A stretch of DNA of 45,349 bases from an uncultured Actinomycetes bacterium (GTDB taxonomy: Bacteria; Actinomycetota; Acidimicrobiia; Acidimicrobiales; RAAP-2): contig CAIQWC010000032.1 in the NCBI GenBank assembly GCA_903875425.1, positions 1-45,349 on the forward strand. The letters are read 5' to 3'. The notes below the pieces were generated by a model that did not search any database, was not told the origin of the DNA, and saw only the letters and a list, made by a program, of their open reading frames with translations. Both the position numbers and the translations under genes were made by a program. Numbering within the stretch: the stretch's first letter is position 1; every line of letters starts with the position of its first letter. Positions 2,295-20,437 of this stretch are shown in pieces.

Positions 2295-2416
2295 GGAGTT
2301 CAGATCGAAGGTCACGGTGGCAACGGCGGCCTAATTGGGATCTGGATAATTCCATCAAATAGTTCAAGAGGGTCCGAAGCCATTTGTTGTTACAGCCGTG
2401 GTTTAGGGTGTCTCGC

Positions 2417-5400
2417 ATGTCTCTAGAAGCCCTCAGCCCAACTGTCATTACCGGATGGCTCGAGTGTGAGCACTCGCTCACGCTGCGCCTCAAAGGTTCA
2501 TCAGCCCCCCAAGCCTTCGGAGATTTTGCCGATCTTGTGCGCGATAAGGGAACGGCGCATGAAGAAGCGGTGTTGGCTCGCTATGAGGCTGAGGGACTTC
2601 GGGTATTGAGGGTCCCAGAAAAAGGCGATCACAGCTTTGAACAGTGGGCGCAGAACTCGGTTGCCCTTTTGGACCAGCCCGATATTGACGTGATTTATCA
2701 ATTCCCACTCGTTTGGAATGGGATCAAGGGTGTTGCGGACTTTTTGGTCAAGGTGAAGGCTGACGGCAACTACAGCCAATGGGAACCCGTTGACGCCAAG
2801 TTGGCTCGCAGTGAGGGAAAGCCCGGACACCTTCTCCAAATTTGTTTTTACGCAGAAGCCGTCGAATCGCTCGTTGGAGCACCGCCCAAGCAAATGCACT
2901 TAGAGCTCGGTTCTGGTGTGCGCGAGTCTCATCGCTTCGAAGAGTTTGGCCCCTATTGGCGGCGCATGAAATTAGAACTCTCCCGGGCTTCGGAGGGTGG
3001 CGCCGTTGATGTTGCCACTGAACCTGAGCCCTGCAAGTTTTGTGATTATTGCGATTTTCAAAAAATTTGTGAAACGCAGTGGCGCAAAGAGGACTCCCTG
3101 GTGTTTGTCGCCAACCTGCTCAAGGCCGATCGACAAGCTTTGAAAGCGGCGGGCATTGAAACTTTGGAAGCCCTCGCCACCGCAACGGTCGCTAAGGGTT
3201 TGCCAGAGGAGCGCTTCGAGCGAGTTCACGAACAAGCGGCGTTGCAACGTCAGCACCGCAATGACGAATCATCTCCCATTCCTTATCGACACGTCGCCCC
3301 TGGCGATGACCCTACCTGGGGACACGGGTACTCCCACCTCCCACACGCAGCTGCTGGCGACGTGTTTTTTGACCTCGAAGGCCACCCCCTGTTCACCGCC
3401 GAACGAGGCATCTTCTTCCTCTTTGGACTGCTCTACGAACAAGACGGAAAGTGGATCTACGACGCTCGCTGGGCTCATGACTTTGAATCCCAAGAACGCG
3501 AAGCTGTCGAGCTAGTTGCCTTCTTCGAACAACGCCGCAAGCAGTTCCCTGGCATGCACGTGTATCACTACAACCACACGGAGCGAAGCTCGCTGGCTTC
3601 GATGACCGCCAATACCGAAGCCTCCGTGGGGTTCGCACACTTAGCCTCACGCGGTCTCTTCGTTGACTTACTCACGGTGGTGCGAAACGCGTATCAGATG
3701 GGTATCGAGTCCTATGGCCTCAAGAACATCGAAAAGGTAATGGGTTTCAAGCGTTCAGGCGAGATCGAAGCCGGTTCGGGAGCAGTGCTGCTCTATGAGA
3801 GCTATGTGAAGGACAAAGGTAAAAACGAGCAATATCTCACCGACATCGCGCTCTATAACGAAAATGATGTTCGCTCTACCAAAATCCTTCGCGATTGGCT
3901 GATCGTGCACCGGCCCGAGGGGCTTCGGTGGCGAGACGCTGAACTACCCGAATACGACAACAACGCCGAACTCGATGAACTCGAATTCAACCTGCTGGCT
4001 TTTGACCAAGGAACGATTCAGCACCTCTTAGGAAATTTGATTGGCTACTGGAAACGAGAGCGCTCGGCTCAGATGACGCCTCTTCGGGCACTGGTGGCCC
4101 AACCGGCGGCCGATTTGGTGGACGAACCCACGGTGATTACCAACCTTGAAATCAAGACTCGAGAGGTCGTCTCCGAAGATCCCAACACGGGCATCGTCAA
4201 AGAAAAGGGAACCTTCAGGTTCCCAGAGCAAGATATTGATGATGGCTGGGGGGACAACCAAAAAAAATTCCTTGTTGGTGGCACTGATGGCCAGACGAGT
4301 TTTGCTAGCGGTTCAGAACTTGACCTCACTAATCGAAGCATTACCTTGACGTGGTCGCGAGATCCTGATCTCCAAGATCTCGTTCCCATCTCTGTCGTTC
4401 CCGATGATTGGGTAAGTCCGTCAACTAAACAAGCCGCCTTGCTAGAGGCTGCTCGCAATATCTTGGCGGATTCGAATTCTTTGCCCGAGGTGACACAAGA
4501 GATCTTGCGCCGGCACAAGCCTCGCTTTATCGACGGGGGAGGCCCCGCCAAGGGCGTCTTCACGGACGATGTCGATGAGATGATCGGCTGGATAAGCGAA
4601 CTCGATCGCAGCATCGTGGCGATTCAAGGCCCTCCAGGGACCGGCAAGACTTATCGAGGTGCCCGCATGGTGCGAAAGCTGCTGAATGAAGGAAAGCGTG
4701 TGGGTATCTGTGCTCCGAGTTACGCCGCCATCGGCAACTTCATGGAAGCTGTGGTCAAGCTCCACCGCGATGAAGGTGGTTTTAATCTCAAGGCGGGCCA
4801 GAAGATCCCCGGTTCCAAATCTCCGAAGCCCTTAGAGCCAGAGGTGTATTACGCAACCTCTAACAAGACGATTGCGAATCCGAAATACAACTTGGTAGGA
4901 GGAACGAGTTGGTTCTTCTGTGGCAAAGAGATCATTGAGAACCCGGTTGACTATCTCATTGTCGATGAAGCAGGCCAGATGTCCTTGGCTGACGTTGCTG
5001 CTATGTCGCTCCATGCCACCAACGTTGTGTTGCTCGGAGATCCCCTGCAACTAGAACAAGTCTCCAATGCGCTTCATCCCGAAGGATCGGGGAGTAGTTC
5101 GCTTGAGTACATGCTTGACGGAGCCCTCACTATTCCTCAAGACCGTGGCGTGTTCATTGAAGAGACTCGTCGCATGCATCCGAGTATTTGTCACTTCATC
5201 TCGACCCAAATCTATGAAGACCGTTTACAGAGTCACGAGTCTTGTGAGCAACAAGTGGTCGAAGACTTTGGGGCTGGACTGCGTTGGATTGAAGCGCATC
5301 ACGCGGACAATTCAACCGAATCAGTTGAGGAAGCGAAGCTGATCGTCGCTGAGATCAAGAAGTTGATGGGTAAGACCTGGACGAGTGAAAAAGGCGAACG

Positions 5401-5773
5401 GCGCCCCCTGGCAGCCAAGGACTTCATGATTGTGGCGCCTTTTAACAAGCAAAAGGATCTCATCCGTAAGGAATTAGAACTTGACCCTGCACTCGCACCC
5501 ATCGCCGAGTCAGTTGGGACGGTGGATAAGTTCCAAGGCCGAGAAGCGCCGGTCGTGTTCTTTTCTATGACCACGTCAGATGGCGAAGGCATGGTCCGCG
5601 GCGCAGACTTCTTGTTCTCAAAGAGTCGTTTGAATGTTGCGGTGAGTAGGGCCAGAAGCCTTGCCTACCTCGTCTGCACCGACGCACTCTTGGGTACGAA
5701 GGCTTCCAAGGTTGATGACATGCGACTGATTGGGACGTTGAACTCGTTTGTGGAGATGGCCGAGATAGTGTGA
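2417..5773 (+). CDS. TM0106-like RecB-family nuclease fused to SF1 (Dna2-like) helicase
   Basis: A protein of 1118 residues with three parts. The N-terminal RecB-like nuclease has GVADFL, VDAKL and a Cys cluster CKFCDYCDFQKIC near residue 204 that likely holds an iron-sulfur cluster, as in Cas4/AddB-type enzymes. A middle RNase H-like exonuclease domain has FFDLEG near 317, a later YHYNHTE block and YNENDVRS. The C-terminal superfamily 1 helicase has Walker A GPPGTGKT near 738, Walker B DEAGQ near 849, LLGDPLQL, ETRRMHP, VDKFQGRE and NVAVSRAR. The predicted role is DNA or RNA end processing with ATP-driven unwinding. ATG 2417 is preferred over 2384 because AGGGTG (2404-2409) stands seven bases before it. 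It follows the DUF2130 gene on the same strand after 122 bp. Confidence 0.88.
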   Translation: MSLEALSPTVITGWLECEHSLTLRLKGSSAPQAFGDFADLVRDKGTAHEEAVLARYEAEGLRVLRVPEKGDHSFEQWAQNSVALLDQPDIDVIYQFPLVWNGIKGVADFLVKVKADGNYSQWEPVDAKLARSEGKPGHLLQICFYAEAVESLVGAPPKQMHLELGSGVRESHRFEEFGPYWRRMKLELSRASEGGAVDVATEPEPCKFCDYCDFQKICETQWRKEDSLVFVANLLKADRQALKAAGIETLEALATATVAKGLPEERFERVHEQAALQRQHRNDESSPIPYRHVAPGDDPTWGHGYSHLPHAAAGDVFFDLEGHPLFTAERGIFFLFGLLYEQDGKWIYDARWAHDFESQEREAVELVAFFEQRRKQFPGMHVYHYNHTERSSLASMTANTEASVGFAHLASRGLFVDLLTVVRNAYQMGIESYGLKNIEKVMGFKRSGEIEAGSGAVLLYESYVKDKGKNEQYLTDIALYNENDVRSTKILRDWLIVHRPEGLRWRDAELPEYDNNAELDELEFNLLAFDQGTIQHLLGNLIGYWKRERSAQMTPLRALVAQPAADLVDEPTVITNLEIKTREVVSEDPNTGIVKEKGTFRFPEQDIDDGWGDNQKKFLVGGTDGQTSFASGSELDLTNRSITLTWSRDPDLQDLVPISVVPDDWVSPSTKQAALLEAARNILADSNSLPEVTQEILRRHKPRFIDGGGPAKGVFTDDVDEMIGWISELDRSIVAIQGPPGTGKTYRGARMVRKLLNEGKRVGICAPSYAAIGNFMEAVVKLHRDEGGFNLKAGQKIPGSKSPKPLEPEVYYATSNKTIANPKYNLVGGTSWFFCGKEIIENPVDYLIVDEAGQMSLADVAAMSLHATNVVLLGDPLQLEQVSNALHPEGSGSSSLEYMLDGALTIPQDRGVFIEETRRMHPSICHFISTQIYEDRLQSHESCEQQVVEDFGAGLRWIEAHHADNSTESVEEAKLIVAEIKKLMGKTWTSEKGERRPLAAKDFMIVAPFNKQKDLIRKELELDPALAPIAESVGTVDKFQGREAPVVFFSMTTSDGEGMVRGADFLFSKSRLNVAVSRARSLAYLVCTDALLGTKASKVDDMRLIGTLNSFVEMAEIV

Positions 5774-6098
5774 CGGCTGCGGCGAGAGCACGAGCCACAA
5801 AGGATGGTCAAAACTTGGGCACTGAGGCGTGAGGGCCTTGAAATTTCGTTATTGCCTTGGCACCCGCCTGATATCTCGCCTAGGGTCGCCAATGAGTTAG
5901 TGGCCCTGATCGCCACGAGCCCTCTACCGAGAAAGAGCCAAGGCGATGAACATCTCAGTTGCAACTAACCATGTGGGCCGAAGGGTTGGGGCGGGGATCA
6001 CCGCTCTTGTGATGACCTGCTCGGTCTTGGTGGCCACCCTCCTCGGCTCAACCTTGCCCCAGAAGAGTAGGGAACGATTCCCCTTTCTCGTTGGCAAT
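5774..6098. other. Gap between helicase and rsgA, no supported gene
   Basis: This 325-base stretch separates two genes that converge. I see no strong terminator hairpin. A 63-codon plus-strand frame from 5946, with a hydrophobic middle, begins three bases after AAGG but runs into the rsgA 3' end and matches no family I know. Confidence 0.4.
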
Positions 6099-7103
6099 CT
6101 AGGCTTTTGGTCTGCGCCCCCGTGCGCTAGAGGCTGATGAGCGTTGGCGCTCCTCGGCTCGAAGCGTGATCGCAGTTCGCTGAGCAATTTCTGCCAGGTA
6201 AGCGGTAACCCGCTCAAGGTCAAGCGCTCCTGACGCTAGGGCTTCGCTCACCGCACAGCCTGCGGTGTCGCCGTGCTCGCAGTCGCTAAATCGACAGTGG
6301 GGGACGACGTCACAGATGTCGTGAAACGCCATGGCGATGCCGTGTTCGCCCGAGAACGACGCTGCGTCCCTTACCCCTGGGGTATCAATCACCACCCCGC
6401 CTGTCGGGAGGACGATGAGTTCACGATGGGTGGTGGTGTGCTTGCCTTGGCCTGATCGTGAGAGTTCTCCTGCGGTGAGTTGCTCGGAGCCCGAGAGCTC
6501 ATTGGTCAAGGTGGATTTACCCGTGCCTGATTCTCCGAGCAACACGATGCTTTGATCCTTGATTCGTTGCCTCAAGGCGTTGAGGCCGTAGCCGGTGGCG
6601 GTCGACATCGTCATGGTTTCGACGCCGCCGAGTTTGGTTGAGATGTGGTTCGCAACTGCGTCCGCATCGTCGATGAGATCGCTCTTGGAAATGACCACGA
6701 GGGCTTCGGCGCCAGCGTCATAGGCCATGACGAGAAAAGTGGACAGCAGCTCCAAACGAAATTGCGCAACGGCCGAGTGGACGATGACGACAAGGTCAAC
6801 GTTTGCCACCACTGTTTGGCGCTGGTCTTTATGGGGCCCACCCAGTCGAGCGAGTTCGCTGTGACGGGTCAGCAACACTGCTTGGTCGGCGGTGCCACCA
6901 AGCCAGTCGCCAACGACGAGTTCTTGGCTGGCTTGAGTTTCGATTCGCAGTGCCCCTTGCGCGGTTTCGATGGTGGCGAATCCTCGATCCACTCGACTCA
7001 CCCGACCGAGTACCCCCGGAAGATCTCGATCCTGACATTCCTCGACTTGAGCGGTGGAGAGACCTAATGCGTTCAAGCGGGCATCAGGCATGGTCGAAGT
7101 CAT
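6099..7103 (-). CDS. rsgA: Ribosome small-subunit-dependent GTPase RsgA
   Basis: RsgA (YjeQ) is a circularly permuted GTPase that helps late 30S ribosomal subunit maturation in the cytoplasm. The permuted order is visible: G4 SKSD (139-142, variant of NKxD) comes before G1 GESGTGKST (190-198) and G3 DTPG (240-243). An N-terminal OB-fold region precedes them. The C-terminal zinc site has Cys270, Cys275, His277 and Cys283. The length of 334 residues is usual. There is no ribosome site; instead TAGCGT lies six bases before the ATG, suggesting a leaderless transcript. A second ATG four codons in is possible. Confidence 0.95.
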   Translation of the reverse strand: MTSTMPDARLNALGLSTAQVEECQDRDLPGVLGRVSRVDRGFATIETAQGALRIETQASQELVVGDWLGGTADQAVLLTRHSELARLGGPHKDQRQTVVANVDLVVIVHSAVAQFRLELLSTFLVMAYDAGAEALVVISKSDLIDDADAVANHISTKLGGVETMTMSTATGYGLNALRQRIKDQSIVLLGESGTGKSTLTNELSGSEQLTAGELSRSGQGKHTTTHRELIVLPTGGVVIDTPGVRDAASFSGEHGIAMAFHDICDVVPHCRFSDCEHGDTAGCAVSEALASGALDLERVTAYLAEIAQRTAITLRAEERQRSSASSARGRRPKA

Positions 7104-7109
7104 AGTGCA

Positions 7110-7115
7110 ACGCTA
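7110..7115 (-). promoter_or_regulatory. Leaderless-type -10 box of rsgA
   Basis: TAGCGT on the minus strand is followed by six bases and then the rsgA ATG. This fits TANNNT placement with transcription starting at the first codon. No clear -35 box. Confidence 0.45.
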
Positions 7116-7145
7116 AGTGACGATTGAAGGAACGAGGCGCCATCA

Positions 7146-7829
7146 CTAGAGAGCACCCTCGTCAAGGTGGGAAAGGACTTCTCTGGCGCGAATCCTCACT
7201 TCTTGGATGTCGCTGAGTTTGGTGGAAGCCGCAACTTGGCGAGCCATGCGGTGATTTGATCTGAGCTGATCGTGGTGGCGATCGAGGAAGTCCCAATACA
7301 GCGTGGTGAAGGGACAGGCTTGAGGTCCCGTGCGGGCCTTTCGATCAAAGACACAGTCTTTACAAAAGTCACTCATCTTGCCGATGTACGCCCCACCAGC
7401 GGCATAGGGCTTGGTCGCCATGACCCCACCGTCGCCATAGAGCGCCATGCCAATGACGTTGGGGGCCATGACCCACTCGGCCGCATCAACGAATCGTTCC
7501 GACATCCAGTCCATGAGCGCTCTGGGATTGATGCCAGCAATGAGGCCCAAATTCCCCAGCACCATTAATCGTGGGATGTGATGGGTCCAGCCAAAGGTAT
7601 CGACGTCTTCAAGTACGTGGGACACGCAGTTCATCGTGGTGGAGCCAGAGGTGAAGAGCGGGGGGAGTGGCCGGGTGGCGTTGAGGGCATTCAACTCCTT
7701 GTACGCAGGGCCTTGGGTCCAATAGAGACACCACACAAACTCGCGCCACCCAATGACTTGGCGGAGTAGTCCTTCGGCACTCCAGTGACACCAAACAATG
7801 TCACGCCATGTTTGGCTCATGAGAAGCAT
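7146..7829 (-). pseudogene. 5'-truncated FeS cryptochrome/photolyase (C-terminal half only)
   Basis: The 227-residue product matches only the C-terminal FAD-binding half of the FeS bacterial cryptochrome/photolyase family (PhrB-like), which repairs (6-4) photoproducts and is normally about 500 residues. Family landmarks are VIGWREFVW, ATRPLP, NVIGMAL, KPYAAGGAYI and CPFTTLYWDFLDRH. All four predicted [4Fe-4S] cysteines are present (68, 156, 159, 172), with spacings of 88, 3 and 13 that equal those I recall for PhrB. The antenna-binding N-terminal ~280 residues are missing: the frame reaches a TAA just upstream and the SDR gene begins 170 bp away. A 22-codon frame (7829-7897) with AAGGTG before its ATG ends in TGATG over this start, so some coupled translation is possible. 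Either a decayed gene or a retained short form; I favour decay. Confidence 0.75.
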
Positions 7830-19170: not shown

Positions 19171-19845
19171 TTAGCGATAGCGGCGATGAATTCGTCGAGC
19201 AATCACAAGACTAAGCGCGCCAAGGATAATAAGACTCGGCCCATAGAGCAGTGGGGTTTCTAGGTTTGAACCCGTGGAGGGTAATTGGGGCGGCGTCGTC
19301 GTCGTGGTCGTTGTCGTTGTCGTTGACGCCGTTGCGGCACTCAATGTCGCCGACGTCGTCAAGTTGGGAAGTTTGCCGGGGTTCGCGGTCGTTACGACTA
19401 CGGAATAGGCCTGCGTATTGCTGACGCCATGGATGACGCAAGAATTTGTGTGCGCATCACTGGTGATGCAATGTGCGGAACCAGGGGATGCGCTGGCTAC
19501 GTAGTGGCCTTGGTTCTGGCCAAAGTTGTTCGAACCCACCGGCGAATTCCAGCTGACCGTTAGGGTCGTGTCACCTCGCGTCACTGAGGTGATCGTGGGG
19601 GTAACGAGCGCAACAATGGTGTCCGTCAGGGGGTTAATTGCGTAGCTCCCCAGTGTGGCATTGGTATCCAAAATCTGGCCATTCACGGTTTGGTCATTGA
19701 ACCAAAAGACCAGTTGATCACTTGGGATGTTGGTTTGGAGAGAGACCGCAGTGGCGATGGAGGAGATCGTATTACTTGCCAAGCAAGGAGCAACCTGAAT
19801 CAGCGTGTTGGCTTCATCCTCGACATTGCACCAAGCGATACTCAT
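19171..19845 (-). CDS. Ubiquitin-like + fibronectin III protein with LPxTG sorting signal
   Basis: A 224-residue product. Residues 12-81 align by eye with ubiquitin: NTLIQV, then TISSIATAV, then IPSDQLVFWFNDQ, then ILDTNATLGSYAI, ending TIVAL, suggesting a beta-grasp domain. A fibronectin type III domain covers about 83-170. A Thr run (175-184) leads to LPSTG (188-192), a hydrophobic helix and the tail RRIHRRYR, the classical sortase wall-anchor signal. AAGGAG six bases upstream fixes ATG 19845, yet the N-terminus has no signal peptide, which is odd for a sortase substrate. Export could need a signal I cannot see. No sortase is in the window. Confidence 0.75.
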   Translation of the reverse strand: MSIAWCNVEDEANTLIQVAPCLASNTISSIATAVSLQTNIPSDQLVFWFNDQTVNGQILDTNATLGSYAINPLTDTIVALVTPTITSVTRGDTTLTVSWNSPVGSNNFGQNQGHYVASASPGSAHCITSDAHTNSCVIHGVSNTQAYSVVVTTANPGKLPNLTTSATLSAATASTTTTTTTTTTPPQLPSTGSNLETPLLYGPSLIILGALSLVIARRIHRRYR

Positions 19846-19911
19846 CGTTTACTCCTTAGGGTCTATGCGCTTTCCCGATCGTAGGGCAGATGGAAATGTA
19901 GCGAGGAGCGA

Positions 19912-20340
19912 TTAGCTGATTTGAACTAACGCCCAGGTAGCCCCGCCTGCACAAAGAGACCAAGCCAGCGTTCTGAACCAGTGATAGCGCAAGAGTCGAT
20001 GATGAAGCGTCTCGTCAAAACCGTGACTGAGTTGGCTATGAATGGGCACCGCTGCGACCATGGTGAGCACGACGGCTGCGAAGGCAGCCGTCGCTGTGAT
20101 GATCCATGATGGCCAGGTTTGGTGTGGACCACGCAGGAGCCAGATTCCAAGGCCTCCTGCTTGGGCTAACCACGCGGGACCTACCGCCCATGTAATGCGG
20201 GTGGAGTGTTGACGGTGGAAATCTAACCAGTGTTCTTCGCCTACGAAGGCGAAGGAAGGGTAGATCACGAGTGCGACGGTGGCACTTAAGCCACAGAGAT
20301 ACACACTGGAGATCAAGGTAACGATCGTGCCGAGTTCCAT
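19912..20340 (-). CDS. Four-helix integral membrane protein, unknown function
   Basis: A 142-residue protein with four hydrophobic helices, at about 3-25, 50-65, 75-95 and 120-140. Between the first two is YPSFAFVGEEHWLDFHRQH, a pattern I recall from small uncharacterised actinobacterial membrane proteins. GAGG four bases before ATG 20340 supports the start; an upstream start at 20379 has no such site. It runs 66 bp upstream of the LPxTG gene on the same strand. No function can be assigned. Confidence 0.65.
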   Translation of the reverse strand: MELGTIVTLISSVYLCGLSATVALVIYPSFAFVGEEHWLDFHRQHSTRITWAVGPAWLAQAGGLGIWLLRGPHQTWPSWIITATAAFAAVVLTMVAAVPIHSQLSHGFDETLHHRLLRYHWFRTLAWSLCAGGATWALVQIS

Positions 20341-20437
20341 AGGCCTCAGGCTAGGGGGTGGAGCGCACGCCTTCACCAACGATCGCGTCGCACTTGATCG
20401 CTGCGGTAGCGGTCAAGTACGACGAGCAAAGCTCTTG

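Follow-up and report, generated by a model that had tools for sequence, protein, structure and literature searches.

YukD and the Bil-type proteins carry a ubiquitin-like fold in bacteria, where they belong to cytoplasmic or conjugation systems. Compared with these proteins, two members of the protein family described here are nearer to eukaryotic ubiquitin in sequence. YukD and poly-Ubl operons are treated in excerpts of PMC11354881. A eukaryotic-like ubiquitin found outside the cell is described for Bacteroides fragilis in excerpts of PMC3352274 and PMC5705921; this protein, BfUbb, is secreted by means of a signal peptide, is thought to have been acquired horizontally, antagonizes other strains of its species, and in its mature form starts exactly at the first residue of ubiquitin (the last point from PMC5705921). 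The protein analyzed here is likewise a eukaryotic-type ubiquitin in a bacterium, but it has no signal peptide, is fused to a predicted FN3 domain and a putative wall anchor, and is far more diverged. According to excerpts of PMC10924467, actinobacterial sortase substrates are known as Tat clients, and signal-less C-tail proteins hitchhike through Tat. The Tat-dependent C-tail substrates in those excerpts resemble our protein in their C-terminal helix, their LPxTG or LAxTG motif, and their actinobacterial origin, but they bear a Tat signal of their own, which our protein lacks, and none is named there with a ubiquitin. Apart from B. fragilis, the PMC literature searched gave us no account of a bacterium that uses ubiquitin as a surface module, and none of signal-less ubiquitin wall proteins.

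The gene lies in a 45,349-nucleotide stretch of DNA from an uncultured actinobacterium; this whole stretch is called the window below. We consider it probable that the gene product is a short surface protein, anchored by sortase and made without a signal peptide, whose outer, N-terminal end is formed by a diverged ubiquitin.

Gene, start codon, and protein layout

The features of the gene and the segments of its product are collected in Table 1. Because an in-frame TAA stands two codons ahead of the ATG, no upstream start can supply a signal peptide, and the other two upstream frames, read by eye, contain no signal-like stretch. Signal peptides were called throughout by a hydropathy rule of our own together with reading of the sequence. 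The highest 13-residue hydropathy within the first 45 residues was 1.29 for the window protein and 0.68 to 1.36 for the five members of its protein family (type A), compared to 1.65 to 3.09 for eight signal-bearing controls, a gap that is real but not wide. On the basis of this rule and the reading frames, a signal peptide is absent from all five members. The preliminary description had held that a strong AAGGAG site fixes the start and that no Sec signal is present, and the in-frame stop and the five members bear this out. The GC content was 0.546 for the gene and 0.567 for the window, so composition gives no mark of a recent foreign insert. Over 216 codons, the gene differs from its counterpart in a genome of the same genus (G001) at 98, 79, and 143 first, second, and third codon positions, respectively, with the third position dominating. 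A promoter and terminator scan returned one match each, at chance level and neither on the strand of the gene.

Table 1. Positions of the gene, its upstream signals, the segments of its product, and the adjoining gene within the window.
Feature	Position	Strand	Basis or remark
Whole gene	19171..19845	-	224 codons plus stop, ATG start; ORF listing, four full-length homologues
AAGGAG ribosome-binding site	19852..19857	-	Read directly; ATG six bases on
In-frame TAA	19849-19851	-	Between AAGGAG and ATG; frame order TAA, ACG, ATG
Ubiquitin-like domain (predicted), residues 1-82	19600..19845	-	hhalign, Pfam of homologues, AlphaFold model and structural alignment
FN3 domain (predicted), about residues 83-172	19330..19599	-	Pfam below cut-off, Foldseek, alignment
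Thr-rich linker, residues 173-187	19285..19329	-	Sequence
LPSTG sorting motif (putative), residues 188-192	19270..19284	-	Sequence, genome search, alignment
Hydrophobic stretch, about residues 199-216 (helix 202-223 in the model), with the basic tail RRIHRRYR	19174..19269	-	Sequence, model
Small membrane protein gene	19912..20379	-	Adjoins the window gene; 50% identical counterpart in G001

An FN3 fold is predicted for the middle of the protein, which scored 16.6 bits against PF00041 (cut-off 25), and two cysteines of this domain (Cys126 and Cys136) are invariant in the alignment of the five members. The C-terminal region matched Gram_pos_anchor (PF00746) with 17 bits by hmmscan, below the cut-off of 20, and with 20.6 bits, above it, in the genome search. 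Each of the five members has an LPxTG or LAxTG motif, and the same motifs occur on signal-bearing proteins of the bacterial family. A sortase gene, which the preliminary description had proposed to look for, is present in the genome of the window (G000:C12:248525-248887, E 1.5e-34). The motif, the hydrophobic helix, and the basic tail fit a sortase substrate and point to putative wall anchoring.

A search of 100 related genomes followed by a profile search located the full architecture in at least 5 of 397 genomes, a lower bound because these five members themselves supplied the profile and at most seven first-look candidates were scored per genome. The members come from the genome of the window (G000), from G001, from G007 and G026, which represent one genus of the same bacterial family, and from G126, which represents another genus of that family. 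The G026 gene corresponds to locus L005 and the G126 gene to L050, apparently the same contig as L064 (CAISIU010000161.1, uncultured actinobacterium; 100% match). Identity to the window protein ranged from 33 to 43% for the other four members, with G001 at about 43%, and the G126 and G026 proteins have the same FN3-Thr-L(P/A)xTG layout. The arrangement of FN3 domain, Thr linker, LPSTG, and hydrophobic tail that had been noted for the window protein is thus common to four homologues, none of which has a signal peptide. An initial scan of the genome collection with the window protein gave 215 pattern stretches, among which no relative was confirmed. The small membrane protein gene lies on one side of the ubiquitin gene in the window and on the other side in G001, and a transporter gene directly precedes the type A gene in G007 and G026; with neighbors differing among members, gene order is not conserved.

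Ubiquitin homology of the N-terminal domain

The window protein scored 14.0 bits against PF00240 (E 0.045, hmmscan of Pfam), below the cut-off of 25.4 bits. This cut-off was passed by two of the four full-length homologues (L005, 52.2 bits; L050, 92.9 bits); L003 scored 12.7 bits and L004 gave no match. The Pfam ubiquitin E-values were 1e-26 for G126 and 5e-14 for G026, the best match of G007 was a SUMO-like ubiquitin model at 9.7e-5, just under the cut-off of that model, and G001 had no Pfam ubiquitin match. Identity to a canonical-type ubiquitin, for which the sequence from L116 served as reference, was 81% for G126, 44% for G026, 25% for the window protein, 24% for G007, and 18% for G001. 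When the window, G001, and G007 domains were compared by hhalign with seven ubiquitin domains of the same order (G126 included), the probability was 87% (E 3.8e-6); for the same query against eleven ubiquitin domains from unrelated bacteria it was 90.6% (E 1.3e-6). A query with G026 added gave 98% (E 2.4e-14). Each of these E-values is for one comparison. None of 500 shuffled versions of the window domain reached the real score with the HMM of the seven same-order domains (G126 again included) or with that of the eleven from unrelated bacteria, with a small margin (6.5 and 6.6 bits versus 4.9 and 6.1 for the best shuffles, respectively). For the G001 domain, 9/500 and 3/500 shuffles reached the real score with the same two HMMs, and for the G007 and G026 domains none of 500 did so with either. 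At the level of sequence, the homologues and the profile comparison together settle the ubiquitin homology of the window domain. In the PDB, phmmer found just weak matches to the window protein, the best being an FN3 protein (E 0.022). The window domain has no Gly-Gly end and no lysine. The E2 family PF00179 matched in none of the 11 genomes examined, and the control likewise matched in none.

An AlphaFold model computed from the single sequence was poor (pLDDT 42.7), and one computed from a 16-sequence alignment reached a pLDDT of 70.5. The alignment held the window protein and 15 sequences from loci examined here, 14 of them ubiquitin domains only. The second model places a strand, a helix (27-38), two strands (45-51 and 54-58), a short helix (65-68), and a strand (76-81) in that order, followed by FN3-like strands and the C-terminal helix. 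A structural aligner ranked ubiquitin first against this model (Z 10.5, rmsd 1.9 Å, 74 residues). Since ubiquitins were present in the alignment from which it was built, the model speaks for consistency and is not independent proof. The 50 Foldseek matches listed are mostly FN3-bearing proteins (E from 5.5e-4), with no ubiquitin among them. The preliminary description had predicted a ubiquitin-like domain from the order of short motifs and had proposed a structure prediction and fold search; the claim holds on the clear ubiquitin at the same place in homologues, the profile-profile match, and a predicted fold that aligns with ubiquitin.

Ubiquitin loci elsewhere and evidence on export

A scan of a collection of 84,980 species yielded 372 ubiquitin-encoding loci. 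In 70 of the best 80 of these, a signal-like stretch directly precedes the first residue of ubiquitin. Those among the best 80 that lack such a stretch comprise four loci of the same group as the present finding (L064, L104, L120, and L141), one with just 12 codons of upstream frame (L081), and five with single, fused, or poly-ubiquitin that by eye are possibly eukaryotic contamination (L072, L091, L130, L133, and L139). In the readable loci among the best 80, ubiquitin is followed by, among other things, repeats, barrel-like regions, and anchors, with sortase-like tail ends in L105 and, by eye, in L071; the Gly-Gly end is kept in 8 of the best 80. Such signal peptide-ubiquitin proteins of many phyla resemble the window protein in having an N-terminal ubiquitin on extracellular-type domains, but their signal lies right before the ubiquitin, where the window family has none. 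The preliminary description had called a ubiquitin-like wall protein unusual. With 372 loci, ubiquitin on surface-type proteins is not rare; its occurrence on a wall-anchored protein varies a theme that is scattered among bacteria, and what is new, and sets the actinobacterial order apart, is the missing signal.

Among 396 genomes sampled evenly from the phylum, just two had a match to PF00240, G000 (on two contigs) and G271, both of this order. The G000 matches (L040, G000:C18:699-899; L045, G000:C19:2430-2651) were set aside as ORFs that look eukaryotic or retroelement-like by eye; in Pfam, their matches were of ubiquitin type only. In view of these eukaryotic-looking contigs, the assembly of the window may hold some contamination. 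The G271 ubiquitin gene (L053:9958-10197) is seemingly frame-shifted and lies beside a second, partial ubiquitin. A match in G362 (L042/L057) was also set aside, as it was read as an E1-plus-JAB operon: in L057 (G362:C443), ThiF/E1-like and JAB-protease-like ORFs are adjacent and the ubiquitin match is weak, possibly a bacterial ubiquitin-like conjugation operon.

The ectodomain of the window protein contains 1.1% Lys plus Arg (2/187), with none in the first 80 residues. The corresponding value was 10.3% for ORFs of the window without a strong hydrophobic segment (8617 residues; these ORFs were listed mechanically, and some may be chance frames) and 0.9 to 2.2% for seven LPxTG/LAxTG proteins of the same bacterial family with signal peptides by reading (L010, L022, L025, L026, L058, L062, and L063). 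Also in the LPxTG/LAxTG set, L061 duplicates L022, the contig start truncates L059, L060 corresponds to the window gene, and chance frames account for L017 and for one frame of L010; L020 yielded no result. The frame of one further LAxTG protein (L023, G007:C28) opens after a stop without a start that could provide a signal, and a signal-like stretch lies immediately upstream in a different frame; this is either a frameshift or a real signal-less case, and it counts against the statement that the others all have a signal. Canonical-type ubiquitin (L116) has 7 Lys and 4 Arg. The first 80 residues contain 8 Lys plus Arg in G126, 3 in G026, and none in the other three members, thus fewer with divergence, which may be read as adaptation to life outside the cell. 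A low Lys/Arg ectodomain such as is seen in signal-bearing wall proteins, together with the invariant Cys pair of the FN3 domain, argues for export, but low Lys/Arg could also be a general property of FN3/Thr-rich sequence, and the 8 such residues retained by the least diverged member, G126, count against the argument.

All 11 genomes examined have one match for SecA, one for TatC, and one to three for sortase. A motif scan of the 45-kb window for Tat-type signals, which misses Tat-like signals with Ala for Phe/Leu, found none. In the stretches examined beside the other four type A genes, the same scan gave no match in L054 and L050 and two each in L055 and L056, where in either locus one lies inside the transporter gene and one was judged a chance frame. 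A different architecture, type B, has a short upstream ORF with a Tat-like signal and the apparent start of a carbohydrate-binding-like domain, and then a signal-less ORF with the ubiquitin and the domain remainder. The split domain is what the sequence reads as, and Pfam matched no family to the short ORF of L104. The Tat-like signal was identified by the motif scan in L049, L051, L052, and L120 and by reading in L046, L047, L104, and L141, which have Ala after RRx. A methyltransferase gene stands between the short ORF and the ubiquitin ORF except in L049, in which just TGA-GCG separates the short ORF from the ubiquitin ATG; Pfam confirmed the methyltransferase in the two loci tested (L104 and L051). 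In L104, whose type B locus lies at 4665-7402, two ubiquitin ORFs stand in tandem, and there is a four-base overlap between the first of them and the methyltransferase stop. None of the ten type B ubiquitin ORFs that were examined has a signal by the hydropathy rule. Uninterrupted relatives of the short L141 ORF with the Tat-like signal were sought in 248 genomes, with one weak and unconvincing match (L144); this search was insensitive, as it missed the short ORFs of three genomes that probably belong to the set (G037, G040, and G111).

The ubiquitin ORFs of L046, L047, L048, L104, and L141 have P-x-F-(T/A)-G, or a sequence close to it, as their very last residues, as do L046:1015-2199, 2403-3770, and 5359-7317 and L051:13224-15380; this terminus is possibly an undescribed C-terminal sorting signal. 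The L104 sequence (CAMCTY010000014.1) is titled Bifidobacterium breve, probably wrongly, given that a similar operon occurs in genus g73 of the order of the window.

Interpretation

The window ORF is very probably a real surface protein, given that its relatives confirm the ubiquitin, the anchor, and the missing signal. We give hardly any credence to the view that the N-terminal domain merely resembles ubiquitin and has a different beta-grasp fold or an unrelated one. The Pfam score of 14.0 of 25.4 bits, the poor single-sequence model, and Foldseek matches listed without ubiquitin could be taken in that sense, but the proteins of the same architecture form a stepwise series in their identity to ubiquitin (from 81% through 44, 25, and 24 to 18%), and the hhalign E-value of 1.3e-6 was obtained without the two clear members on either side. 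The signal-like stretch before ubiquitin in most of the best 80 loci elsewhere would fit a window gene that once encoded a ubiquitin surface protein with a signal and that has been decaying by drift since the loss of its 5' end. We regard such decay as very unlikely: 224 codons have remained open at about 43% identity to the G001 protein, changes at third positions dominate, the ribosome-binding site is strong, and the signal is absent from five type A and ten type B ubiquitin ORFs.

A cytoplasm-facing membrane protein of the ordinary tail-anchored type, with an idle or coincidental LPSTG and a ubiquitin domain that works inside, would account for the absence of a signal peptide in all five members and for the single C-terminal helix, which is the layout of tail-anchored proteins. 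By the positive-inside rule, a basic flank favors the cytoplasmic side, and the basic tail after the helix favors a C-in orientation instead. The sorting motif has also been kept in every member despite identities of 33 to 43% to the window protein, the Lys plus Arg composition is that of exported proteins, and the members have an invariant Cys pair and a Thr-rich stalk; on balance, a tail-anchored protein seems unlikely, though we do not dismiss it lightly. The surface protein that we prefer could take the form of a ubiquitin protein that folds with a separate, Tat-signal-bearing polypeptide and hitchhikes out with it. Eight type B loci pair a short ORF with a Tat-like signal and a signal-less ubiquitin ORF, TatC is encoded in 11/11 genomes, and hitchhiking is known for C-tail proteins (excerpts of PMC10924467). 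We hold this form only tentatively, as the motif scan found no partner ORF close to any of the type A genes, that of the window included, the type A architecture differs from type B, and the short L104 ORF has no Pfam family, its split domain being a reading.

For a sortase-anchored surface protein, we propose the following course. A eukaryotic-type ubiquitin was probably acquired by horizontal transfer into the actinobacterial order. The nearly Lys/Arg-free N-terminal 187 residues would end outside the cell, the likeliest routes being co-transport with a partner that bears a Tat signal and N-tail insertion through Sec/YidC, and the C-terminal helix and basic tail would hold the protein in the membrane with the N terminus out and the C terminus in. 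Sortase would then cut the LPSTG motif and join the protein to the wall, so that the ubiquitin would be displayed on an FN3-Thr stalk. The loss of the Gly-Gly end and of all lysines from the window domain suggests a display or binding module and not a conjugated tag. By analogy, we would guess at a role as binding module, decoy, or antagonist, with protist proteins, or other bacteria antagonized as by BfUbb, as possible targets. A more sweeping proposal, which we offer as a long shot, is that ubiquitin has replaced the signal peptide at the N terminus of such proteins in this order, and that proteins of types A and B exit by a route unseen by signal prediction, such as joint passage through Tat with a short polypeptide that brings the Tat signal and completes the fold.

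The one studied case of such reuse that we found is that of B. fragilis; these findings add further bacteria in which ubiquitin is reused for display on surface-type proteins, and they define a set of sortase-substrate-like proteins without a signal peptide. They also make testable the question of whether a wall protein can be exported without a signal sequence of its own, and by which translocase.
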